From the NCBI RefSeq assembly GCF_000262755.1, contig NZ_AFEU01000003.1, positions 248,001 to 312,000 of the forward strand: a stretch of 64,000 nucleotides of DNA, read 5' to 3'. Position numbers and translations under genes: made by a program. The notes under the pieces were generated by a model. The model did not search any database. It was given only the letters and a program-made list of their open reading frames with translations, and was not told the origin of the DNA. The stretch comes from Bacillus methanolicus PB1. Lineage in GTDB: Bacteria; Bacillota; Bacilli; Bacillales; Cytobacillaceae. Shown one piece after another: positions 2,680 to 57,001 of this stretch. Each line of letters starts with the position of its first letter. The stretch's first letter is position 1.

Positions 2680-3682
2680 TTCGAATCACCTCCAAATGTT
2701 GAGTTCGTTCAGTGATATAACTGATTGCCCGTTCGACTTCATCCGGGTCGCCTGTCAATTCCATAATAAATATCCCTAAAGGAGTATCTTTTATATACTC
2801 GATTTTTCCATGCAAAATATTTCCCTTCACATAAAATTTTTGCAAAGCGTCGGAAATAACAGCCTCTTCGGCAATTGCTCCTTGAAAAAAAACTTTAACG
2901 ATTTTTCCGCGCCGATCTTTTAAAAGATTTTCTGGAAGATCAAATTGCAGGATGCTGTTGATAAAATCCTTTGTTAACTGTTCCTGCGGATTTGCGAATA
3001 GATCATAAACTTTGCCTTCCTCAATGATTCTTCCATTTTGCATCACAGCCATCCTGTCGCATATGTCCTTCACAACTTCCATTTCATGTGTAATCAAGAC
3101 AATAGTGATCCCTAATTCCCGGTTTATTTTTTTAAGCAGTTCCAAAATAGACTTTGTTGTGGTCGGATCCAAAGCGGAAGTGGCTTCATCGCAAAGAAGA
3201 ACGGAAGGATTATTTGCAAGTGCCCTGGCAATACCGACTCGCTGCTTTTGACCTCCGCTTAATTGCGACGGGTAGACATCAGTTTTGTCAGACAGGCCGA
3301 CCATTTCAAGCAATTCTTTGACCCTTTTATCGATTTCTGCTTTTGATTTGTGTGCAGCCTTTAACGCAAATGCAATATTTTCATAAACGGTTTTTGAGCT
3401 GACTAAATGAAAATGCTGAAAAATCATTCCGATTTTCAAACGGGCTTTCCTCAGTTCTTTTTTCTTAAGAGAGGTCAACGACACACCGTCAATAATAATC
3501 TCACCGGACGTCGGTTTTTCCAAAAGATTCAGACAACGCAGAAGCGAGCTTTTCCCAGCTCCGCTGTAACCAACAATCCCAAAGATTTCTCCTTTCTTTA
3601 CAGTTAGTGAAACATTGTCAACACCGATAACTTTTCCTTTTTTTGTTTCATAGATTTTGACTAAATCCCTTACTTCGATCAT
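2669..3682 (-). CDS. metN: MetN, methionine ABC transporter ATPase
   Basis: Cytoplasmic ATPase driving methionine import. The 337-residue product shows a Walker A motif (GYSGAGKSS, about residue 38), the signature LSGGQKQRVGIARAL, Walker B VLLCDEATSALD and the H-loop ITHE. The C-terminal 80 or so residues are the NIL/ACT-like domain that binds methionine and gives trans-inhibition in E. coli MetN. It is the first gene of the operon, directly after the S-box terminator. The start ATG is preceded by a GGAGGG site. Confidence 0.95.
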   Translation of the reverse strand: MIEVRDLVKIYETKKGKVIGVDNVSLTVKKGEIFGIVGYSGAGKSSLLRCLNLLEKPTSGEIIIDGVSLTSLKKKELRKARLKIGMIFQHFHLVSSKTVYENIAFALKAAHKSKAEIDKRVKELLEMVGLSDKTDVYPSQLSGGQKQRVGIARALANNPSVLLCDEATSALDPTTTKSILELLKKINRELGITIVLITHEMEVVKDICDRMAVMQNGRIIEEGKVYDLFANPQEQLTKDFINSILQFDLPENLLKDRRGKIVKVFFQGAIAEEAVISDALQKFYVKGNILHGKIEYIKDTPLGIFIMELTGDPDEVERAISYITERTQHLEVIRNAA

Positions 3683-3706
3683 ATGTAACCCTCCTTTTTC
3701 TGAACG

Positions 3707-3864
3707 TATAAAATAAAAATACCTCTTTCATTCAGAAAGAGGCATCGTCTTTTATCTACGACTTATCTTTCAGAATGAAATGTTCATTCTGCAGGATGTG
3801 GCACCTTTCCAATAGGAGGTTGCCGGACGTCATTGGGCCTGGTCCCTCGGTCACTCTTGATAAG
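3707..3864 (-). promoter_or_regulatory. SAM-I (S-box) riboswitch with terminator, metNIQ leader
   Basis: On the minus strand the aptamer runs from CTTATCAAGAG (3854-3864) through the GAGGGACCAGGCCC, GTCCGGCAACCT and GGAAAGGTGCC blocks to the closing AAAGATAAG (3763-3771). An intrinsic terminator hairpin (3722-3743, GCCTCTTTC / GAAAGAGG) followed by a T-run lies just before metN. SAM binding should terminate transcription. Confidence 0.96.
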
Positions 3865-3889
3865 CAACTTATTCACTTTTTATAAAAGA

Positions 3890-11699: not shown

Positions 11700-11946
11700 T
11701 AAAAAAAGCCCTTTTTCATCCTTCTTAAAAGGACGAAAAGGACTTCATTTCCATTTCCGTGGTACCACCTTTATTGGATGCATACGCATCCCGCTCTTCA
11801 TGATAACGCTCTGGCAGCGCCCGTGTTTTTTGCACAGGACTCAGGAGGCAGGTTCTGCGGCTTTGCAGCGGCGAAGTCTTCCAGCTTAAAAACCCCGCTC
11901 TCTGTCGCACAAAGTGCCCGCATACTAATCCTCCGTCAACGTTCAT
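11700..11946 (-). promoter_or_regulatory. T-box leader (proline type) of proBA
   Basis: On the minus strand: a long stem I region starting near 11943, the T-box core GGTGGTACCACGGAAATGG (about 11752-11770) and an intrinsic terminator (11700-11743, CCTTTTCGTCCTTTTAAGAAGG... and T-run). Uncharged tRNA-Pro should stabilise the antiterminator. A CCT triplet in the stem I region could be the specifier, but I did not fold it. Downstream genes make the proline assignment firm. Confidence 0.92.
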
Positions 11947-12259
11947 TTTTTTCTATTATGTAAAGGAAACTGCGAATCTGTCAATAGAAAAAAGTTTAAT
12001 TTTTTAAAAAACTTGCGTTAAATTATGCCCTTTTCTGTAGAAAGGGGCGGAGCTAAGCTAACAAAGATATTAATGGCAACATATCTTTAGCAAGATACTT
12101 GTTTAGCTGAGTAAATATTTAAAGCTTGGCTTCGCTCACACCGTCTTATTATGTTGGATCTGTTTTACACGAAAGCTATTTCCATGTTTGGGTTGGGAGT
12201 AAAAACTCATGCTCGTTTTTTGTCTATAAAGAAAATATTTCACAATTTCATTTCAAAAA
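11947..12259. other. Intergenic region, nothing assigned
   Basis: AT-rich stretch between the T-box leader (transcribed leftwards) and the aspartokinase gene. It should hold the proBA promoter near 11960-12000. No gene seen. Confidence 0.4.
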
Positions 12260-31492: not shown

Positions 31493-32266
31493 TTAAATCA
31501 GCTGAAGCTCTTGGAGACCATGTCGTATGCCGCCATCATTAATATGCTTGGTGGTAAACTTAGCAAAAGGTTTTAATTCTTCGTGGGCATTTCCCATGGC
31601 AATTCCCATTCCGACATAAGAGAGCATCTCTTTATCATTTAGTCCGTCCCCAAATGCTACTGCATCGTCAGGTGACAGGTTAAGATGCTGAAGCATGACC
31701 TCGATTCCTATTGCCTTTGATCCGTCTGACGGAAGAACATCCATCGACAAACGGTGCCAGCGAATAAAAGTAAGGTCGGGAAATTTCCCTTGATAAAAAT
31801 GCTCTTCATGTTCCTGGCAATAAAGTAAAGCTTGGAAGATCTTTGCTTCCTTCCAATAATGCGGATGATAAACTGGAACCTCTACCTTGACAGACTGGAA
31901 AGATTCAACAATATGGGGATGATTGTCTGCATTTGCATAGCATTCTTCATGGCCTAAATAGACTATTGGGTGGTTGAGTTGACGTGCATGATTCTCCAAT
32001 AATTCCAAACTGGATGAATGAATCGGATGTTCATAGATGACTTTTCCTTTATGGACAACATAAGCACCGTTGAAACTTACATAGGAATCAATCCCCAGTT
32101 CTTCGGCGATATTTTTAAAATGAAATGGTGCTCTTCCGGTTGCAAAGCAAACTACGACGTTCCGTTCTTTCAGCTTCTTTATTGCCTCTATTGTGTCTTT
32201 GGGTATTCTTGATTCTTCATTGACTAATGTGCCGTCAATATCGAAAAATACAATTTTATAAGACAT
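31493..32266 (-). CDS. HAD-family Cof-type sugar phosphatase
   Basis: 257-residue cytoplasmic phosphatase of HAD subfamily IIB (Cof/YitU-like). Motif I is VFFDIDGTLVNEE, motif II CFATGRAP, motif III Lys in GSKAIG and motif IV FGDGLNDKEML. The start at 32266 follows a GGGAGAGG site; a longer upstream frame lacks one. Substrates of this family are sugar phosphates or FMN-like compounds; not predictable here. Monocistronic. Confidence 0.87.
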   Translation of the reverse strand: MSYKIVFFDIDGTLVNEESRIPKDTIEAIKKLKERNVVVCFATGRAPFHFKNIAEELGIDSYVSFNGAYVVHKGKVIYEHPIHSSSLELLENHARQLNHPIVYLGHEECYANADNHPHIVESFQSVKVEVPVYHPHYWKEAKIFQALLYCQEHEEHFYQGKFPDLTFIRWHRLSMDVLPSDGSKAIGIEVMLQHLNLSPDDAVAFGDGLNDKEMLSYVGMGIAMGNAHEELKPFAKFTTKHINDGGIRHGLQELQLI

Positions 32267-32339: not shown

Positions 32340-32520
32340 CCAAATATCCATATCTTCTAATCACCTTACAAAAGAACGCAGTGAGTCGGCAAGTGTATTT
32401 GACTTGTAGCTCTTAAATTTGCAATTTATATCTTTTGTACATTACATCTCAATATCTATTTTATCAGCAACCAAGATAATTAGAAGCTATTTTACAGAAA
32501 TTAACCAAATCGTTACAATT
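32340..32520. other. Intergenic region, promoter of the HAD gene presumed
   Basis: AT-rich, no gene seen. It borders the terminator at 32521-32548. Confidence 0.4.
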
Positions 32521-32548
32521 AAAACCTCCCACTATTTGCGGGAGGCTC
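32521..32548 (-). terminator. Terminator of the NAMPT/OMPDC/HisI-like operon
   Basis: On the minus strand CCTCCCGC, a 7-base loop, GGGAGG and TTTT. Confidence 0.75.
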
Positions 32549-32644
32549 TTTATTAATATGGAATATTACATGGTTTTTTAGTAGATTGCAATAATATACA
32601 CCTGTATTCTAGCGTATTTTTCGCAGGTTTCTTCATTCATTCCT

Positions 32645-33007
32645 TCACTCGGTTTTTTCATTTTTAGGTATAAACTCTTTAATAAAACAACTTTGATATC
32701 CGTAATGACAAACAGGCGATTCCGGTACAACTTCTAATAATATTGTATCATCGTCACAATCCGCAACGATGCGCCGGACGCTTACAAACTTCCCATCTTC
32801 CTCGCCTTTGACTTGTACTCGGCCAAGGGTGCGCCGAAACAAGGTTACTAGTCCAGTCTCTACGGTTTGTTCCCATGCTTCCTCATCCATAAAACCAACC
32901 ATCAATACTTCTTTTGTTTCTGCATGCTGCAGCACGGCAGGAACAAGACCGTTCAGTTTAGAAAAATCAAGCTTTATATTACTCGAAATTTTATTTTCCA
33001 CTGTCAT
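32645..33007 (-). CDS. HisI-like cyclohydrolase domain protein (divergent)
   Basis: 120-residue protein with the fold signature of phosphoribosyl-AMP cyclohydrolase. Zinc-binding residues are kept: VADCDDDTILL (Cys and Asp cluster) and PVCHYGYQSCF, and MVGFMDEEAWEQTVETGLVT resembles the substrate strand. But HisI's usual FYSRSR.LWTKGETSG is altered to LFRRTLGRVQVKGEEDG, and no other his gene is nearby. Known HisI opens the purine ring of PR-AMP in histidine synthesis. Here it is the third gene after NAMPT-like and OMPDC-like genes, so it probably acts on another ribonucleotide. Confidence 0.8.
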   Translation of the reverse strand: MTVENKISSNIKLDFSKLNGLVPAVLQHAETKEVLMVGFMDEEAWEQTVETGLVTLFRRTLGRVQVKGEEDGKFVSVRRIVADCDDDTILLEVVPESPVCHYGYQSCFIKEFIPKNEKTE

Positions 33008-33022
33008 ATTTAAGGTCCTCCT

Positions 33023-33757
33023 TTATTTTTTCAGCAATGCAAAGTTTAAAGCCTCTGCACCAAGAATTTTTGCCGCCTCTTTTGGATTGTCGCTCGCATA
33101 CACTGCCCGGCCTGTAATGGCATAGCACGAACACCCCGGCGCTGCTGCAAACGCATCGGTGATGCTTCCTCCCATTGAACCGATTCCTGTCATAAATAAA
33201 GCAGGCTTGCGGTCCGAAGCAGACAGAATCTCATTCACTCGTCTGATCCCATTCAGATTTGTGCTTGGTATGATAAAATGATTTGCTCCCAGCTTTACTG
33301 CATGCTCTAATATTCTGATCGGCCCGTCATCGGTTACATATCCGCCGCCGCTAAATTTGTACTCAGTCATCGGAAAATCACCGCCGACAATCGGGCATAA
33401 CCCTTGACGCTGGGTATGTACAACAAACTCTTCAACAGCCGTTGGTCCCGCCAACGGAAACAACACGAGTGCGTCCACACCGGCCTCCCGGCAGATTGCA
33501 CAGAACTTTTTGGCCATATCCGGAATGTCCAGCCCCGCTTTCTGGTGGTCGTATAAAATTGGCAAATCGGTGATCTCACGGATTGACTGTACGGCGTTGG
33601 CCAGTCCCAATCGGAGTGCCCCGGCAATACCAAGTTTATATCCCACCACTCCTTCAACTTCGCACGTTTCTTCCACCACGCGGCGAATGGCATCAACCGA
33701 CTCTAAATCGAGTGCCGGAATAATCCCATATTGTGAGCGGAAATTTATCTCAGCCAA
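33023..33757 (-). CDS. OMP decarboxylase-superfamily protein (atypical)
   Basis: 244 residues from a TTG start at 33757 with a perfect AAGGAGG site 7 bases upstream; the longer frame has no such signal. TIM-barrel features of the orotidine-5'-phosphate decarboxylase suprafamily can be seen: IIPALDLES, VVGYKLGI (Lys), ILYDHQKAGLDIP (Asp, Lys, Asp), FMTGIG and the phosphate loop YAITGRAVYAS. The catalytic loop has extra residues compared with the normal DxKxxD, so the reaction may differ (decarboxylase, aldolase or synthase). There are no pyr genes around. Second gene of the three-gene operon. Confidence 0.8.
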   Translation of the reverse strand: MAEINFRSQYGIIPALDLESVDAIRRVVEETCEVEGVVGYKLGIAGALRLGLANAVQSIREITDLPILYDHQKAGLDIPDMAKKFCAICREAGVDALVLFPLAGPTAVEEFVVHTQRQGLCPIVGGDFPMTEYKFSGGGYVTDDGPIRILEHAVKLGANHFIIPSTNLNGIRRVNEILSASDRKPALFMTGIGSMGGSITDAFAAAPGCSCYAITGRAVYASDNPKEAAKILGAEALNFALLKK

Positions 33758-33778
33758 CTGATATCCTCCTTTTTTTGT

Positions 33779-33819
33779 GCGCCCTGAGCCAAACTCCTGC
33801 AGATTTTGGCACAGAGCGC
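33779..33819 (-). other. Strong intercistronic hairpin
   Basis: 15-pair stem (one mismatch), GCGCTCTGTGCCAAA against TTTGGCTCAGGGCGC, with an 11-base loop, between the NAMPT-like and OMPDC-like genes. There is no T-run; an AAGGAGG RBS follows. It could be an mRNA processing or stability element. Confidence 0.7.
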
Positions 33820-33870
33820 TCGAAGTTTTCTGCTCAAATTCCAAATTGCAATACTTTATTAAAACATTGT

Positions 33871-35286
33871 TCAACTTGAATAACTCTTTGCAAGGTATTG
33901 TTCCGCAAACTTGTCGATTTTCTCTTGGATTGCCTTCGACAAGATGATTCGTTTTTGATGGGCATCCTGCTTAAGAACCCTTTCTTGAACCTGTTTCCAA
34001 TGTTCCTCGTTTGCAATTTTGATCGTTGGAGTTCCAGTACCATTATGGTGATAAATGACTTCATACAAGCTTTTGCGTTCACTTTCATTTACTGTTTCAA
34101 CAACAAGGTCACCTGAAATGTTTACTACTTTCACTTCGCCCGGAATGCTTCGTTTGATTGGCTCCATTCCAAATTTCATGCGGTCTTTACCGTTGCTGTA
34201 AGCAGTTTTCATTGCCCAGCTTAATGTGTCGCGAGTCATATGCTGATAGAATCCGGAGCCAATTCCATAGGCGACAAAGTTGAGTGGGATGCCGTGTTCC
34301 TCAAGAATTGCGTCATATTTTTTCATCACCTCAAAGGACATTCCATCTCCGATAAAAGCGCTGACTGTATCTAGAAGGTCATTCGCCTTAGCTACCTTGT
34401 AGATTTCGATTGCCTGATCTATGACATCTCCGCTATCCGGCCGCATGGCAATTTTGATGCCTTTTTCTCTTGCGTATCTTCCCAATGATGGCAGGTATTC
34501 ATGGATAACTCGGTAAGCATCGTATGTGTCGATCAACAATGCTACAAACTTTAAACCATCTTTATGGGTGACATCGATCGCGTGAATAAAGCTGTCAAAC
34601 TCGTTATCGAACTGCTGGGTGACTTTGTGAGACTGTGCCGATACTCCTCCAATCACCGCATGCGGGGTGTGTATGCAAGTATGAAAATCATCGGTTTCGT
34701 GCAGCGTAAGATTCCAAGCCGTACCAGCCCAATACGCATCTTCCAAACTGCGATGTGCCCGGAATCCATAGCTATGGACCCGCCAGAAAAATGAATCATC
34801 GAATCCGTAGAGTTCTTTTTTCTCCTTTAAATATTTCCGGATGTGAAAGGCTTCCGTTGCGCAATTGCTTGGAAAATACCCATGCAGATAGTTTGCTTCC
34901 CACCATGTTACGAGTTCACCGAATCCTTCAATGGTGTTGCGAATTTGAGCAAAAGGCGTGCCAACCGGGCACCAGGTCCCTTCCGGAAGTGTTTCAATCG
35001 AGATAGGCGCATATCCATTGCATTCTTCTACGACACGCATAAAGAGTTCGGTTGGGAAGACCATCCCCATCCTTTTGGCATGACTTTCCGCTTCTATGAC
35101 ATGCTCCTTCGTAATTTGGATAGATAATATCGAATTGACGATTTCCCTTAACCCGTACAAGATCATGCCTGCTTTGCGATTGTAAATATGGCTAATTTCC
35201 CAATCTCCATTTATTTTGAGCCTGTGATGAGACGGATTGTAACTGTCCGTCAGTACGACTGGATTTCTGTAAATATCTTTTAACAT
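33871..35286 (-). CDS. Nicotinamide phosphoribosyltransferase-like protein
   Basis: 471 residues, the length of NAMPT (NadV) and longer than most NAPRTs. Features of the type II phosphoribosyltransferase fold: VVLTDSYNPSHH at the start, TWWEANYLHG, SYGFRAHRSLEDAYWAGTAW, KIAMRPDSGD (cf. RPDSGDP), SAFIGDGMSF and YGIGSGFYQ. NAMPT joins nicotinamide and PRPP to give NMN. Several residues around the base pocket differ from animal and phage NAMPTs as I recall them, so another base is possible. First large gene of an operon with OMPDC-like and HisI-like genes, which no NAD pathway I know explains. RBS AAGGGGG. Confidence 0.82.
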   Translation of the reverse strand: MLKDIYRNPVVLTDSYNPSHHRLKINGDWEISHIYNRKAGMILYGLREIVNSILSIQITKEHVIEAESHAKRMGMVFPTELFMRVVEECNGYAPISIETLPEGTWCPVGTPFAQIRNTIEGFGELVTWWEANYLHGYFPSNCATEAFHIRKYLKEKKELYGFDDSFFWRVHSYGFRAHRSLEDAYWAGTAWNLTLHETDDFHTCIHTPHAVIGGVSAQSHKVTQQFDNEFDSFIHAIDVTHKDGLKFVALLIDTYDAYRVIHEYLPSLGRYAREKGIKIAMRPDSGDVIDQAIEIYKVAKANDLLDTVSAFIGDGMSFEVMKKYDAILEEHGIPLNFVAYGIGSGFYQHMTRDTLSWAMKTAYSNGKDRMKFGMEPIKRSIPGEVKVVNISGDLVVETVNESERKSLYEVIYHHNGTGTPTIKIANEEHWKQVQERVLKQDAHQKRIILSKAIQEKIDKFAEQYLAKSYSS

Positions 35287-35352
35287 AAAGTATTCCCCCT
35301 TAATATTGCGTCAAATTTTTAGGCGGAAACACTTTTGCCTGATAAAAGGCAA

Positions 35353-35396
35353 AAGACGCCTTGTGAGTAAACACAGGCGCCTTTGGTTGTCCAATC
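35353..35396 (-). ncRNA. Structured leader motif, copy 2, next to the NAMPT-like gene
   Basis: 44 bases, 43 identical to copy 1. On the minus strand: mini-hairpin TTGG-ACAA-CCAA, then a 12-pair stem AAGGCGCCTGTG against CACAAGGCGTCTT with loop TTTACT. A second hairpin CTTTTGCC/GGCAAAAG (35332-35355) overlaps its 3' end, as in an expression platform. I know no named riboswitch class of this sequence. Confidence 0.6.
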
Positions 35397-35405
35397 GGCA
35401 GCGAT

Positions 35406-35594
35406 TCATTCTGATACATCGAAATGTTGAGTTGAATAGAATTTTACAGTGATTTCATGAAAAAGCGTACAAGAAGTGCATTCGCGAACATTCGGCGTTA
35501 GTGTGTCCGAAAAAGATAATGTGTTCTTAAGTTCATCAGCGAACAACATCACTTCTGCTTTGGCAGCATTTGCAAGTACCAATACACATTTCAC
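35406..35594 (-). CDS. Small ORF in the operon leader (two overlapping candidates)
   Basis: Between the two structured motifs a GGGAGGTG site starts one of two frames. The 62-residue frame (GTG 35594, or a TTG a little downstream) reads VKCVLVLANAAKAEVM...ECTSCTLFHEITVKF, looks protein-like and ends just before motif copy 2. A 17-residue Cys-rich peptide (ATG 35589 to stop 35536, MCIGTCKCCQSRSDVVR) has better spacing to the site. Either could be a genuine small protein or a leader peptide. No known family. Confidence 0.4.
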   Translation of the reverse strand: MKCVLVLANAAKAEVMLFADELKNTLSFSDTLTPNVRECTSCTLFHEITVKFYSTQHFDVSE

Positions 35595-35609
35595 CTCCCA
35601 AAAAAACAT

Positions 35610-35653
35610 AAGACGCCTTGTGGGTAAACACAGGCGCCTTTGGTTGTCCAATC
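35610..35653 (-). ncRNA. Structured leader motif, copy 1
   Basis: Same 44-base unit as 35353-35396, with one difference in the loop. It is followed by TATGTTTTTTT, so the 12-pair stem could act as a terminator. Short hairpins CCTACT/AGTAGG (about 35687-35704) and GGAAT/ATTCC lie upstream in the same leader. Confidence 0.6.
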
Positions 35654-35721
35654 AGCATGGAATTATTCCGATATTTCTTATATTTCCTACTTAAATAGTA
35701 GGGTTTAATTTCTTATTGTGA

Positions 35722-35750
35722 ATCCTATCAGAAATATTTCTTTTCGTCAA
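35722..35750 (-). promoter_or_regulatory. Promoter of the NAMPT/OMPDC/HisI-like operon
   Basis: TTGACG (35745-35750 as complement), a 17-base spacer and TAGGAT (35722-35727), placing the RNA start near 35715 and giving a leader of about 430 bases. Confidence 0.7.
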
Positions 35751-35856: not shown

Positions 35857-36963
35857 TCATGTAAAAGATTTCTCGAAAACGGTAAATTCTTTAATTGTGT
35901 CATAATTTGGCTCGTATCCGATACCCGGTTTGTCGGGAACCTTAATCCAGCCGTTCTCTACAACAACCTCAGGTTCAATTATATCACGTTCCCAATATCT
36001 TGAAGAGCCGGCTGTATCACCCGGCAGAATAAAATTATCCAGCGTTGTTAATGCAATATTATGTGCCCTGCCTATTCCGGATTCAAGCATGCCGCCGCAC
36101 CAAACGGGAAGTCCGTGTTCCCGGCAAAGATTGTGAATCCTTTTTGATTCGGTCAAACCGCCGACACGCCCTATTTTAATATTAATAATTTTGCAGCTTC
36201 CCAATTCAATTGCTTTCCTTGCATCCTCATAAGAATGAATGCTTTCATCCAGACAGACCGGAGTTTTAATCTCTTTTTGCAGCCGGGCATGGTCGACAAT
36301 ATCATCCGAAGCCAAAGGCTGCTCAATCATCATTAAGTCAAATTCATCCAGCGCCTTTAAAAGATCAATATCTTCAAGGGTATAGGCTGAATTGGCATCT
36401 GCCATTAGCGGAACTTCCGGGAAGCGTTTCCGAATTTCTCTTAGTACTTTAACATCCCATCCCGGCTTGATCTTAATTTTCATCCGTTTATAGCCTTCAT
36501 TAGCATATCCATCAATTAAACGAAGAAGGTCCTCCACTGTTTCCTGGATGCCGATCGAGATTCCGGCCTCAATTTCTTCTTTTTGTCCTCCGAGTGCAGC
36601 GGCAAGTGAAATTCCCTTTTCCTTTGCATATAAGTCCCAGACTGCTCCTTCAACAGTTGATTTTGCCATATTATTTTTCCGTATGTATGAAAAAATGTCC
36701 GAAACTTCATCAGGATGGCTGATTTCTTTATTCAGTATTGCCGGAATTAAAAAATCCTCAAGCATATGCCAGTTCGTTTTTACCGTTTCTTCATTATACC
36801 AGGGTATATGAAATGCAACCGATTCACCCCAGCCGCTCAGCCCATTATCATCAATGGCTTCGAGCAAAAGAAATTCTTTATCCTGAAACGATCCGAAACT
36901 TGTTGTAAACGGGGATTTCATTCTCATTTTCAGATGGCGTAAAATTATCTTTGTTAGTTTCAT
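35857..36963 (-). CDS. N-succinylamino acid racemase / o-succinylbenzoate synthase family (NSAR)
   Basis: About 368-residue enolase-superfamily enzyme. Catalytic KIKIKPGWD (KxK motif, second Lys), metal ligands in ADANSAY, EQPL and DESIHS, and the opposing Lys in [10 protein letters not shown] are in order. The family includes menaquinone OSBS, but the neighbours (N-succinyltransferase and desuccinylase) match the Geobacillus D-amino-acid pathway, where this enzyme racemises N-succinyl-D- to N-succinyl-L-amino acids. No men gene is near. The start is taken at the second candidate after AAGGTG; a GTG three codons upstream is possible. Confidence 0.9.
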
Positions 36964-36981
36964 TTCGATCACCTTGTTCGA

Positions 36982-37812
36982 TTAGTCCAGATCCAATGAT
37001 TCCCGTTTTATGAGCAAATAATAGTTAACAGCTGCTGTTTCACCTTTAACAAGTGAAACAGCAGCATATCCGGAAGAAAATAAGGTTTGAAAAATTTTCC
37101 TTGTCTTGAAACGCCAGTCAATCGCCAGTTTATCATCCTTACTTTTTAGAGCCTGAAAATTTGAAGGAACAGGCACATATAACGGTTGATTGTTTTCTCG
37201 AACAGCGGATAATCCGATCATAAAATCCTCTAGTTTCGGTAAAGAGAGGTCCGTCATATCCCATTGAAATATATGCCGTGCATCTGTAATTTTAATCGCT
37301 TGAGGTTCTGAGGCATGAGAGCTATTGATCCACCATTCAACTTTAAAACGGTCGCTCGGAAGCCCGCTGTTTAAGCTGTCTTGCATTTCACCGTAGCAAT
37401 TTTCAACATAGGTTGAACAGACAGCACGCAGTTTCGTTAGATTTAAATAAGCGTTCCTGCTCTCAAGCGGATCATACGTCCATGTAATTAAATCATACCC
37501 CATATCACTTGCTACTTGCTTTTGTTTTGCTTTCAGCATCGCACCGATTCCTTGATCTTGATAATCGGGATGTATACCGAGCATATGGGAACACAAATAG
37601 CTTTTTCCGCCGCGAAATCCAGGAAAACTGTAACTGAATCCGACGATGTTGCCATCGATAAAAGCTCCAAGTAAAAGGCCCCCATTTTGTGAAGCTGTGA
37701 TCGTTTGGTGAAGTGGAATCGGTTCTGTGTTCCAAACTTCTTTTTCAAGCACTTGAACTTGCTGCAGTTCATCACTGCTCTTTAATACCTTGATTTCAAC
37801 AGCTGACAGCAT
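36982..37812 (-). CDS. GNAT acyltransferase, probable D-amino acid N-succinyltransferase
   Basis: 276 residues with an N-terminal GNAT acetyl-CoA fold (about 5-150), including the acyl-CoA loop HPDYQDQGIGAMLKAKQ, and a C-terminal extension. In Geobacillus kaustophilus the homologous neighbour of NSAR uses succinyl-CoA on D-amino acids, and this gene fits that place. It overlaps the desuccinylase gene upstream by 17 bases and precedes NSAR closely, so it is translationally coupled. Confidence 0.82.
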   Translation of the reverse strand: MLSAVEIKVLKSSDELQQVQVLEKEVWNTEPIPLHQTITASQNGGLLLGAFIDGNIVGFSYSFPGFRGGKSYLCSHMLGIHPDYQDQGIGAMLKAKQKQVASDMGYDLITWTYDPLESRNAYLNLTKLRAVCSTYVENCYGEMQDSLNSGLPSDRFKVEWWINSSHASEPQAIKITDARHIFQWDMTDLSLPKLEDFMIGLSAVRENNQPLYVPVPSNFQALKSKDDKLAIDWRFKTRKIFQTLFSSGYAAVSLVKGETAAVNYYLLIKRESLDLD

Positions 37813-38950
37813 TTTGATGTCCTACACTCTGCACTTCAAATGTATTGATGATCGTTTTCGTAAGAATCTCAATGCCTGTAAATATAGCTTCCCGATTAAA
37901 CGTCATATTTGGGTGGTGGAGTCCGGGAAATAATCCGCAGCCTAATCCGAGCATTGTCGCTTTCAAGTGCGGTTTTTTTAGTGAATAAAAATGGAAATCC
38001 TCCCCGCCGGACGTAACTGCCGGTTCTTTCAAATTTTGTTCACCGATAGTATCGAGAATCGCTTTTTTCATATTTTGAATTGCTTCCTCGTGCACTTCTG
38101 CAGCGGCTACTGATCCCTTCGTTTCAAGCCGGATTTCAACTCCATACAAGCATGAAACGGCTTTTGCAATTTTCTCGATTTTTTCCGTCAGTACTTCCAA
38201 TGCTTTGTTCGTCTGTGCCCGCAAATCGATACTAAAAGAGGCTTTGCCGGGAATAATATTGCTGGAGTCGCCTCCCGCATGAAATTTCGTCATCTTCGCC
38301 GAGTATGGAACCATCGGATCCAAATATATGCTCTTCATTTCATTTACAAGCGAAGCACCGATTTCGATCGAATTCTGACCGAGGTGCGGCCGCGCCCCGT
38401 GGGCATCCTCCCCGATGATCACCCCTTCTATAAATTTGGCGGCGCCATGGTAAATGGCAGGACATGCTTCACCGTCGCCTATTTCCTGTTCCGGTCGAAG
38501 ATGAACGCCATATAAATAATCAACATCGTCCATAACGCCTTTTTCAATCAGTTTTAACGCACCTGTTCCCTTCTCTTCAGCAGGCTGGAAAATAAACTTC
38601 AGTTTCCCGTTTGAAGGAAAACCTATTTTTTGCAAAAGAAGCATTACTCCAATCACAATAGTCATATGAGCATCATGCCCGCACGAATGGTTTGCCTGAA
38701 AAGTTCCGTTTACTTCCTGCCAAAGTGCATCCATATCCGTTCTTAATCCAACACAAACATCCCCGCTGCCTACCTCAACAACGAGGCCTGGGCAATCAAT
38801 AAATGTTACTACCCTAAAACCTTTTTCCTCCAATAATGCACGAATAAATTCTGTTGTCTTATATTCCTGCCAGCTGACTTCAGGATTGCTGTGTAAATAC
38901 TCAAATACCGGATAAATAATTGGTTTTAATTCTTGCAGATACTCTTTCAT
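37796..38950 (-). CDS. M20 metallopeptidase, probable N-succinyl-L-amino acid desuccinylase
   Basis: 384-residue amidohydrolase of the M20D type. Metal ligands in HSCGHDAHM, the catalytic Glu in PAEEKGTG, a dimerisation domain at about 180-290 and the C-terminal SGGEDFHFY motif. In this operon it should release free L-amino acid from the NSAR product and pull the racemisation forward. It follows the RpiR regulator by 12 bases. Confidence 0.87.
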   Translation of the reverse strand: MKEYLQELKPIIYPVFEYLHSNPEVSWQEYKTTEFIRALLEEKGFRVVTFIDCPGLVVEVGSGDVCVGLRTDMDALWQEVNGTFQANHSCGHDAHMTIVIGVMLLLQKIGFPSNGKLKFIFQPAEEKGTGALKLIEKGVMDDVDYLYGVHLRPEQEIGDGEACPAIYHGAAKFIEGVIIGEDAHGARPHLGQNSIEIGASLVNEMKSIYLDPMVPYSAKMTKFHAGGDSSNIIPGKASFSIDLRAQTNKALEVLTEKIEKIAKAVSCLYGVEIRLETKGSVAAAEVHEEAIQNMKKAILDTIGEQNLKEPAVTSGGEDFHFYSLKKPHLKATMLGLGCGLFPGLHHPNMTFNREAIFTGIEILTKTIINTFEVQSVGHQNAVSC

Positions 38951-38962
38951 TTTCTTACTCCC

Positions 38963-39817
38963 CTAAGAATCACTATAATAAAAAAAAGATTCTCCATTTA
39001 ATTTTTCATAATTCTCTTTCCTTTTTTTAAACCGGTCCGGATTTCGGACCGTCACGCCGGCAACCAAGGCATTAATAAAAGACATCAATGCAGGAGCGGC
39101 ATCAATTGTGGATCTGTTTGATCGATAAATCGGAAAAACAAGTTCAGCAAACTCCCGAATCGGAGCAAGCGGTGAATCGGTAATCCCAATCACATATGCC
39201 CCTTGCTCCTTCGCCATTTCGGCTACCTTAAGCGTTTCCTTTAAATATCGATGGAAGGAAATGGATACCAGAAGCGAATTTTCGTTCATACTTGCAATGG
39301 TCGAGAAAATATCATCTGTTTCCTTTCTGATGAGCTTGACGTTTTCACGTGCCAATCCTAGTGTGAAAGCGAACCAATGCGCAGCTGTAAACGACGTCCT
39401 TAATCCTGAAACAAAAACGTGTTCCGCCTGTGTCAATTTTTCGATTGCTAGTTCAAAATCGTTTTCGCTTATGGTTTTGATCGTATCTTGAATATGTTTG
39501 CGGTCCCTTTCCATCACCTTCGCAAAAAAATGAGGCTTGTCCACCCATTCCAATTTTTCTGAAAAGAATTGACCAAGACTGCTTTCTTTGAATAATAGTT
39601 GTTTACGAATAATTTTTTGCAGTTCCGAAAATCCGGACAGTTGAATAGCGTAACAGAACCGGATAACGGTAGATTCACTGACCCCTGCCTGAAACCCTAT
39701 CTCCTGGGCATTCTTTACTGCAAAGTCTTTAGGATTTTCAATTAAATATTTAGCAACCTTTTGCTGTCCTTTTGATAACTGGTTGTACTTTTGTTGTATG
39801 ATATCTTGTATGTTCAT
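38963..39817 (-). CDS. RpiR-family transcription regulator with SIS domain
   Basis: 284 residues: N-terminal helix-turn-helix (about 1-77; AGVSESTVIRFCYAIQLSGFSELQ, part) and a SIS sugar-phosphate-like domain (about 120-260; VFVSGLRTSFTAA, LLVSISFHRYLKETLKVA). First gene of the D-to-L amino acid operon, so probably its own regulator. SIS domains usually sense phosphosugars, which would be odd for an amino-acid pathway. RBS AGGAG. Confidence 0.88.
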   Translation of the reverse strand: MNIQDIIQQKYNQLSKGQQKVAKYLIENPKDFAVKNAQEIGFQAGVSESTVIRFCYAIQLSGFSELQKIIRKQLLFKESSLGQFFSEKLEWVDKPHFFAKVMERDRKHIQDTIKTISENDFELAIEKLTQAEHVFVSGLRTSFTAAHWFAFTLGLARENVKLIRKETDDIFSTIASMNENSLLVSISFHRYLKETLKVAEMAKEQGAYVIGITDSPLAPIREFAELVFPIYRSNRSTIDAAPALMSFINALVAGVTVRNPDRFKKRKENYEKLNGESFFYYSDS

Positions 39818-48128: not shown

Positions 48129-48273
48129 CCTCTTCTTGGATAAGAAGAGGCGAAAGAATACAATCTTTTTGCTCTTCTTATCTTTCAAGCTGTCGCTTGC
48201 TGGAATTGGCACAGTACTTTAAAGTCTGTTGCCGAGGCTTCACCGGGCCAGTCCCTCCACCTCTCTTGATAAG
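48129..48273 (-). promoter_or_regulatory. SAM-I (S-box) riboswitch of the fbpA-like/yezD/ssuE unit
   Basis: Aptamer from CTTATCAAGAGAGG (48260-48273) through GGGACTGGCCCGG, GGCAACAGACTTTAAAG, GTACTGTGCCAATTCC and GCTTGAAAGATAAG (48177-48190), then terminator CCTCTTCTTATCCAAGAAGAGG (first arm and loop) with T-run (48125-48150). Confidence 0.95.
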
Positions 48274-48365
48274 AAAACATACGAGAATATTAAACTTGGA
48301 AACAAAACATGATGTCATAATGGGGAGTAATCCCATTCGGTTCATTAACTTTTATTTGATATTAA

Positions 48366-53920: not shown

Positions 53921-54068
53921 CCCCTTCTTTGAAAAAAGAAGAGGTTCATGAATGAAACTCACTTCTTTTCTCATCTTTCAAGCATTTCGCTTGCTGGAAT
54001 TGGCACAGTACTTGAAAAGCCTGTTGCCGAAGTTTCATCGGGCCAGTCCCTCCACCTCTCTGGATAAG
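53921..54068 (-). promoter_or_regulatory. SAM-I (S-box) riboswitch of the monooxygenase gene
   Basis: CTTATCCAGAGAGG (54055-54068), GGGACTGGCCCGATG, GGCAACAGGCTTTTCAAG, GTACTGTGCCAATTCC, CTTGAAAGATGAG, then terminator CCTCTTC/GAAGGGG with T-run at 53915-53944. Very similar to the S-box at 48.1-48.3 kb. Confidence 0.95.
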
Positions 54069-54147
54069 AAACGAAGATATATTCAGTTATGATAAAAACT
54101 CTGATGCAAGTATAATCCCTGATATTCTATAGATTTTGTTGGTTTTT

Positions 54148-56746: not shown

Positions 56747-56818
56747 GAAAAAACAGCACTACTAAGAAAGTAGCACTGTTTTCTTAGTTTTTTTAAAGAG
56801 GGTAGCTAGAACCTCTAC
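56747..56818 (-). promoter_or_regulatory. preQ1-I riboswitch with terminator, queCDE leader
   Basis: Minus strand aptamer AGAGGTTCTAGCTACCCTCT, then TTAAAAAAACTAA (about 56784-56816), the hallmark class I preQ1 motif, and a terminator AACAGTGCTACT / AGTAGTGCTGTT with T-run (56749-56780). Confidence 0.95.
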
Positions 56819-57001
56819 CGTAATAAACGGATTTTTTATTCACTTACTCTTATTCTAACATAATTTTATTGAATCGAAAAATAATCTTTCTGCCGAAAGC
56901 AAAATTGACTTTATTAGGTTAATTATTGATAGACTATTAGAATTATTTTATTATTTTCATTAAAAAGTAATAACTTATCTTATGAATAAAGGAGACTAAA
57001 T

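Follow-up and report, generated by a model that had tools for sequence, protein, structure and literature searches.

An operon of three genes in Bacillus methanolicus PB1, encoding a NAMPT-like phosphoribosyltransferase, an OMPDC-like enzyme and a HisI-like cyclohydrolase, is preceded by a leader with two copies of a small RNA element, and in relatives the same element precedes genes for sulfur scavenging. From this it follows that the operon probably helps the cell to obtain or to save sulfur. The operon lies on the minus strand of the 64,000 nucleotides (nt) that were analysed (contig NZ_AFEU01000003.1, positions 248,001 to 312,000; below, the window). That it belongs to a regulon of sulfur genes controlled by attenuation is, as judged from sequence, very probable. 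The more specific proposal, that during sulfur starvation it gains sulfur from a nitrogen-containing heterocycle, with a phosphoribosylated compound as the intermediate, has in our estimate about an even chance of being right. An earlier note on this DNA had suggested a nucleotide pathway starting from a free base and phosphoribosyl pyrophosphate (PRPP). The use of PRPP agrees with the genes that follow the operon in Aneurinibacillus danicus, described below, but the generic salvage setting is not supported, because the leader has an RNA element in common with a regulon of sulfur genes, which places the operon in the context of sulfur metabolism. This controlling signal, a repeat with hairpins and a Cys-rich reading frame, had escaped the note.

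The leader is about 430 nt long and holds a 73-nt direct repeat, the copies of which are 86% identical and 257 nt apart. Each copy carries GCYGATTGGACAACCAAAGGC and, behind it, a strong terminator to which the last bases of GCYGATTGGACAACCAAAGGC contribute. The element is a 21-nt hairpin, GCYGAUYGG-NNNN-CCRAARGC, that overlaps this terminator. In the order of transcription, the features are:

35722-35750, minus strand: promoter-like site of sigma-A type, TTGACG-17-TAGGAT, with TG ahead of the -10 (consensus scan 9/12)
35636-35656, minus strand: sulfur-regulon RNA hairpin copy 1 (GCTGATTGGACAACCAAAGGC), putative antiterminator (repeat, and covariation over 41 distinct sites)
35610-35641, minus strand: terminator hairpin 1, which has its overlap with hairpin copy 1 in the 3' arm of the latter (-18.3 kcal/mol, z -2.8)
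35536-35589, minus strand: short leader open reading frame (ORF) MCIGTCKCCQSRSDVVR, with 4 Cys in 17 residues, between the two hairpin copies (position partly conserved)
35379-35399, minus strand: sulfur-regulon RNA hairpin copy 2 (GCCGATTGGACAACCAAAGGC) (repeat)
35351-35384, minus strand: terminator hairpin 2, which overlaps hairpin copy 2 (-19.9 kcal/mol, z -2.6)

The element is found in the leaders of all four operons that are known. The window, B. methanolicus MGA3 and A. danicus have two copies each, and Alicyclobacillus pomorum has a single copy, which shows compensatory TCGG/CCGA changes. Between the two B. methanolicus genomes the spacer of the leader has diverged and the hairpins have been kept. 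Short Cys-rich ORFs occur 3' of the element also in A. danicus (VRTCIDFCSC and VRTCIDSCSC) and in A. pomorum (VRCWMDSCSSC...), and the pattern is weak in MGA3; these ORFs fit with sensing of cysteine, which is only suggestive. A longer leader ORF, 35406-35651, shows no conservation from one B. methanolicus genome to the other and was rejected as a protein. No Rfam family, including SAM and T-box, matches the leader at gathering score, and a riboswitch of a kind described in Rfam was accordingly rejected. Elsewhere in the window there are SAM riboswitches on the minus strand at 3760-3866, 48175-48275 and 53968-54070, a T-box at 11726-11948 and a preQ1 riboswitch at 56778-56821.

The score of the promoter is at chance level when taken alone, and an equivalent arrangement (TTGACG...TGATAATAT / TTGATA...TAATAT) can be read at the corresponding position ahead of the operon in A. 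danicus and A. pomorum. A CymR operator was suspected in the promoter region; its consensus was not verified in the literature and the operator is not claimed.

How far the element extends beyond these operons was estimated with a degenerate pattern, which gave 151 matches in the 194 genomes of the family, some of them within coding sequence, versus 16 for the reversed control. At the 61 sites that bear a terminator, the key positions co-vary, being T-A in 43 cases and C-G in 15, and the sites of the three exceptions have little appearance of being true ones. When the 41 distinct sites are aligned, 99.7% of the cells are paired, compensatory change is seen in four of the seven pairs, and the covariation score is reached by none of 500 shuffles. 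The same hairpin is recovered by RNAalifold unaided.

The genes that follow the element define the regulon. Profiles identify among them the aliphatic sulfonate-binding protein SsuA, a sulfate-binding protein and the sulfate permease CysT, all of transport; further the cysteine synthase CysK, the flavin mononucleotide reductase SsuE, DUF2292/YezD and, at three loci, luciferase-type monooxygenases. Many more sites precede genes of the same kinds, as assigned by sequence, and in the window's own genome the element precedes a LysR-type regulator whose neighbours are a substrate-binding protein and a monooxygenase. At one locus (L107; G064:C114, 284-7772) the element is followed by an operon that resembles those for utilisation of ergothioneine, in the order ErtD, MmgE/PrpD, M20, NCS1 permease and M20, where ErtD (hydantoin-5-propionate amidohydrolase) scores 787 bits against a cut-off of 650.

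Regulon membership alone demands no sulfur substrate. Under limitation of sulfur the operon could instead synthesize a replacement that is free of sulfur, or else a modified nucleotide to be used as signal or cofactor, and the lack of an importer in the operon would agree with this. Most other members of the regulon that were seen serve uptake and release of sulfur, however, and the patchy distribution of the three genes, to which we return below, suits an occasional nutrient more than a core cofactor; we regard synthesis of such a nucleotide as rather improbable.

The three genes are closely spaced, with gaps of 113 nt between the first two and 15 nt between the last two:

35286-33871, minus strand: NAMPT-like phosphoribosyltransferase, 471 amino acids (PF04095/PF18127)
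33757-33023, minus strand: OMPDC-like enzyme of the HUMPS family with a DHQKAGLDIP loop, 244 amino acids (PF00215, 37 bits)
33007-32645, minus strand: HisI-like zinc cyclohydrolase paralog without a HisE domain, 120 amino acids (PF01502, 78.6 bits)
~32516-32545, minus strand: intrinsic terminator 3' of the HisI-like gene, CCTCCCGCAAATAGTGGGAGG TTTT (from sequence)
31493-32266, minus strand: Cof-type HAD phosphatase, possible accessory, in its own transcription unit 379 nt downstream

The OMPDC-like gene has a TTG start preceded by an AGGAGG site, and the conserved start in relatives agrees with it. The layout that the earlier note had described, with one promoter, a long leader, three close genes and one terminator, is thus confirmed, on a strand that it had left unstated. 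It was also right that no gene of nicotinamide adenine dinucleotide (NAD), pyrimidine or histidine metabolism is adjacent to the operon. Upstream of the operon, on the same strand (35857-39817), the window has MenC/racemase-like, GNAT, M20 amidohydrolase and RpiR-type regulator genes, an arrangement that resembles processing of N-acyl amino acids.

Families were assigned by Pfam cut-offs, and membership in the equivalog, i.e., the canonical enzyme, was tested by NCBIfam cut-offs. All three products pass the former (PF04095, 39.5 bits, and PF18127, 27.1 bits, for the NAMPT-like protein; PF00215; PF01502), in agreement with the families named earlier, and all three fall below the latter, with 164 against 405 bits for NAPRTase, 29 against 92 bits for PyrF and 112 against 126 bits for HisI. 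Normal counterparts occur elsewhere in the genome: a pyrF (203 bits) next to a pyrD-like gene, a second HUMPS gene with a glucose-6-phosphate-dehydrogenase-like neighbour, an NAPRTase-like gene, and a second PRA-CH (hisI) gene, which has a longer frame of 229 codons and with 124 bits outscores the copy in the operon. Therefore the genes of the operon are, as far as their sequences tell, extra and divergent paralogs, with pockets that appear altered. The earlier claim, that the set is accounted for by none of the standard pathways, stands.

To exemplify, consider the OMPDC-like protein. Its residues D17, K41, D70 and D77 align with D20, K42, D70 and D75 of the OMPDC from M. thermautotrophicus, and R217 aligns with the phosphate-site R203 (GR-V/I-Y); D17, K41 and R217 are invariant in the four operons, and the catalytic and phosphate-site roles of these residues are presumably those generally ascribed to the family. 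The D-x-K-x-x-D motif is replaced by DHQKAGLD in all four, with a two-residue insertion and the Lys shifted by one, and Met stands in place of Gln185. The altered loop DHQKAGLDIP that had been pointed out earlier is invariant in the four known operons, the other three of which encode OMPDC-like proteins 80-92% identical to that of the window. An AlphaFold model of this protein, made from a shallow alignment of four sequences, reached a pLDDT of 41 and was not used. In the HisI-like protein the metal motifs DCDxD and CHxGxxSCF (Zn/Mg ligands) are intact in all four operons, and the substrate loop SRT..R-L-W-x-K-G-E-T-S-G is replaced by RRTLGRVQVKGEEDG, so that W-x-K-G-E-T-S-G reads QVKGEEDG in each of them and the Trp is lost.

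If the three products were an ordinary NadV, PyrF and HisI with normal activities, brought together by chance, one would expect the family catalytic motifs, and parts of these are in fact kept in all three. The scores below every equivalog cut-off, the normal genes elsewhere in the genome, the changed spacing of the OMPDC tetrad, the changed substrate loop of HisI and a gene order that is conserved across three orders all argue against such a chance assembly, and we consider it very improbable. PADLOC models for anti-phage defence match none of the three proteins, and a defence system was rejected.

The NAMPT-like protein retains the catalytic His (His220) and the substrate Asp and RPDSGD motifs. 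Its closest relatives outside the operon are in Paenibacillus, 53-63% identical, and are encoded by single genes beside adenylyltransferase-like genes, with or without NUDIX genes, i.e., in a setting of NAD salvage. These neighbours and the retained His220 and RPDSGD are what one would expect if the first enzyme were a true nicotinamide phosphoribosyltransferase and the other two repaired or recycled damaged nicotinamide nucleotides. Such a salvage would be induced in sulfur starvation because de novo synthesis of NAD needs the iron-sulfur enzyme NadA, and would thereby spare sulfur. Against this, the four operon proteins differ from six relatives in NAD context at 29 positions. Among these, Y173 (F in the relatives), A177 (G), G214 (S) and Q218/S219 (L/A or T/A) fall in segments which we take, from human NAMPT F193 to H247, to be the base pocket. 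The nicotinamide pocket residues of the NAD-salvage relatives are thus apparently not shared by the operon proteins, with several differences near the base pocket. Moreover, the operon has no nicotinamide mononucleotide (NMN) adenylyltransferase, and in NAD salvage as it is known the OMPDC-like and HisI-like enzymes play no part. We judge sulfur-sparing NAD salvage to be unlikely, yet the likeliest of the alternatives considered here.

The distribution of the three genes is narrow. The OMPDC-like gene occurs in two of the 194 genomes of the family, those of PB1 and MGA3, and in only two further genomes among 400 of the class, in each case in one species of its order. When 85,000 genomes were scanned, the three genes turned up in unchanged order in A. 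danicus (88/86/82% identity) and in A. pomorum (82/80/75% identity), which makes the gene order conserved across three orders, and beyond these two, PB1 and MGA3 no genome sampled has the cassette; among the four genomes that bear the operon, protein identity is 74-95%. Each of the four genomes with the cassette has the three genes side by side, and therefore the separation in relatives that the earlier note had named as its refutation did not appear. In a third species of the genus (L113, ~3050-3760) the cassette is lost, and what remains between the downstream HAD gene, which is kept with the terminator, and the upstream MenC-like gene is an NAMPT-like piece of about 36 nt beside a transposase-like relic. 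Since the same genes stand together in four genomes and leave a relic in the third species, the cassette moves and is lost as a unit, and its patchy distribution points to horizontal transfer with repeated loss, as far as sequences can tell.

The HAD phosphatase gene is also found downstream of the A. danicus operon (78% identical to the window copy), and a copy 95% identical is retained in the sister species without the operon, so that obligate membership of the phosphatase in the operon is weakened. An origin from phage or plasmid was rejected, as phage NAMPT-like matches are ordinary (~25-28% identical) and the OMPDC-like gene is on no phage or plasmid. A plasmid of Paenibacillus peoriae (NZ_CP061173, 12001-14808) carries NAMPT-like, nucleotidyltransferase and NUDIX genes amid phage-like genes, in resemblance to a phage NAD-salvage cassette.

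In A. danicus the cassette is followed directly by genes for a PRPP synthetase and a pyrimidine-type nucleoside hydrolase and then by the HAD phosphatase. These neighbours, together with the sulfur regulon and the UMP-like (uridine monophosphate) nucleotides that the OMPDC fold binds, would suit a specific form of the sulfur-gaining proposal, in which thiolated nucleobases (such as 2- or 4-thiouracil, or thiocytosine from turnover of tRNA) are salvaged and desulfurated. The phosphoribosyltransferase would then make the thio-nucleotide, and the HisI-like enzyme would swap C=S for C=O and release H2S without an iron-sulfur desulfidase. No action of NAMPT-type enzymes on pyrimidines is known, however, and we give this specific form only a small chance.

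In the broader proposal, where a heterocycle is the source of sulfur, the events would be as follows. Transcription would start at about 35715 and meet two attenuators in tandem, in each of which the 21-nt hairpin competes with the overlapping terminator. When sulfur is short, a factor acting in trans or a signal would stabilise the hairpin, the terminator would not form and the operon would be read. The tandem architecture is plain in the leader, and its switching under sulfur shortage is what we infer from it. The enzymes would then act in sequence on a sulfur-bearing, nitrogen-containing heteroaromatic compound. The NAMPT-like enzyme would transfer ribose-5-phosphate from PRPP to a ring nitrogen and thereby activate the ring; the OMPDC-fold enzyme, with the 5'-phosphate site kept and the catalytic loop altered, would remove or rearrange a substituent next to that nitrogen; and the HisI-like zinc enzyme would add water to the ring, by hydrolysis of C-S or C-N, with release of sulfide or sulfite. 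The three genes that follow the A. danicus cassette would supply PRPP and recycle ribose. The substrate and the three reactions are deduced from family chemistry; the scheme agrees with what each family does chemically, with the genes for PRPP and ribose in A. danicus and with the precedent of ergothioneine.

The strict version of the proposal we hold to be possible, though rather less probable than the proposal as a whole. In it, the heterocycle is tagged with ribose-5-phosphate, as rings are in the pathways of NAD, UMP and histidine, and the OMPDC-fold and HisI-like enzymes themselves then carry out the ring opening or the cleavage of C-S, under an RNA antitermination switch that is shared with the sulfur regulon. 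This would constitute a new route of sulfur assimilation.

Several observations weigh against acquisition of sulfur as the function. Both a transporter and a known desulfurising enzyme are missing from the operon, and regulon membership could reflect sparing of sulfur instead of its acquisition. The element is also found upstream of genes without obvious sulfur role, namely a threonine synthase, an esterase and an operon with GntR, M20 and peptide ATP-binding cassette genes; its sites came from a consensus pattern, and most of those examined are in one family of Bacillales. Finally, because the nearest NAMPT relatives adjoin NMN-adenylyltransferase-like genes, nicotinamide may, from sequence comparison, be the true base.

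To our knowledge, none of the three enzyme families acts in sulfur scavenging, and no description of a pathway that combines NAMPT, OMPDC and HisI was found in the literature. If acquisition of sulfur from a heterocycle is the true function, enzyme families of NAD, pyrimidine and histidine metabolism become tied to sulfur scavenging, with a short list of substrates for testing. The leader element, in turn, is a compact marker of a sulfur regulon in Bacillales and may guide searches for further, still uncharacterised sulfur genes, while the factor that binds it is a target for study in its own right.

Each part of the system resembles something known and departs from it. The first enzyme shares with NAMPT/NadV the fold, by profile, the catalytic motifs and relatives in NAD-salvage context, and differs by its score under the equivalog cut-off, the substitutions around the base pocket and partner genes foreign to NAD. 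The second aligns with archaeal-type PyrF (PRK13813) in the Asp and Lys residues and the phosphate-site Arg, and differs by the loop insertion, the shifted Lys, the Met for Gln185, the low family score and the normal pyrF elsewhere. The third keeps the metal motifs of PRA-CH HisI, and differs by its substrate loop, the lack of HisE and the better-scoring second copy in the genome.

For the leader, the nearest counterpart is the 'ABC-leader', an attenuator predicted by Naville & Gautheret 2010 upstream of an alkanesulfonate transporter in bacilli, with a shared element reported upstream of a sulfonate ABC operon and one unknown gene (PMC2965389). Both are leaders with terminator and antiterminator in front of sulfonate transporter genes of bacilli, but the present element extends over many sulfur genes as well as this operon and is without a match among the Rfam families. 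The two are probably the same. For the pathway, the nearest counterpart is utilisation of ergothioneine by operons of the ErtD type, which relies on amidohydrolases and an NCS1 permease and proceeds without phosphoribosylation, but which likewise catabolises a sulfur heterocycle and, in L107, sits behind the same RNA element.

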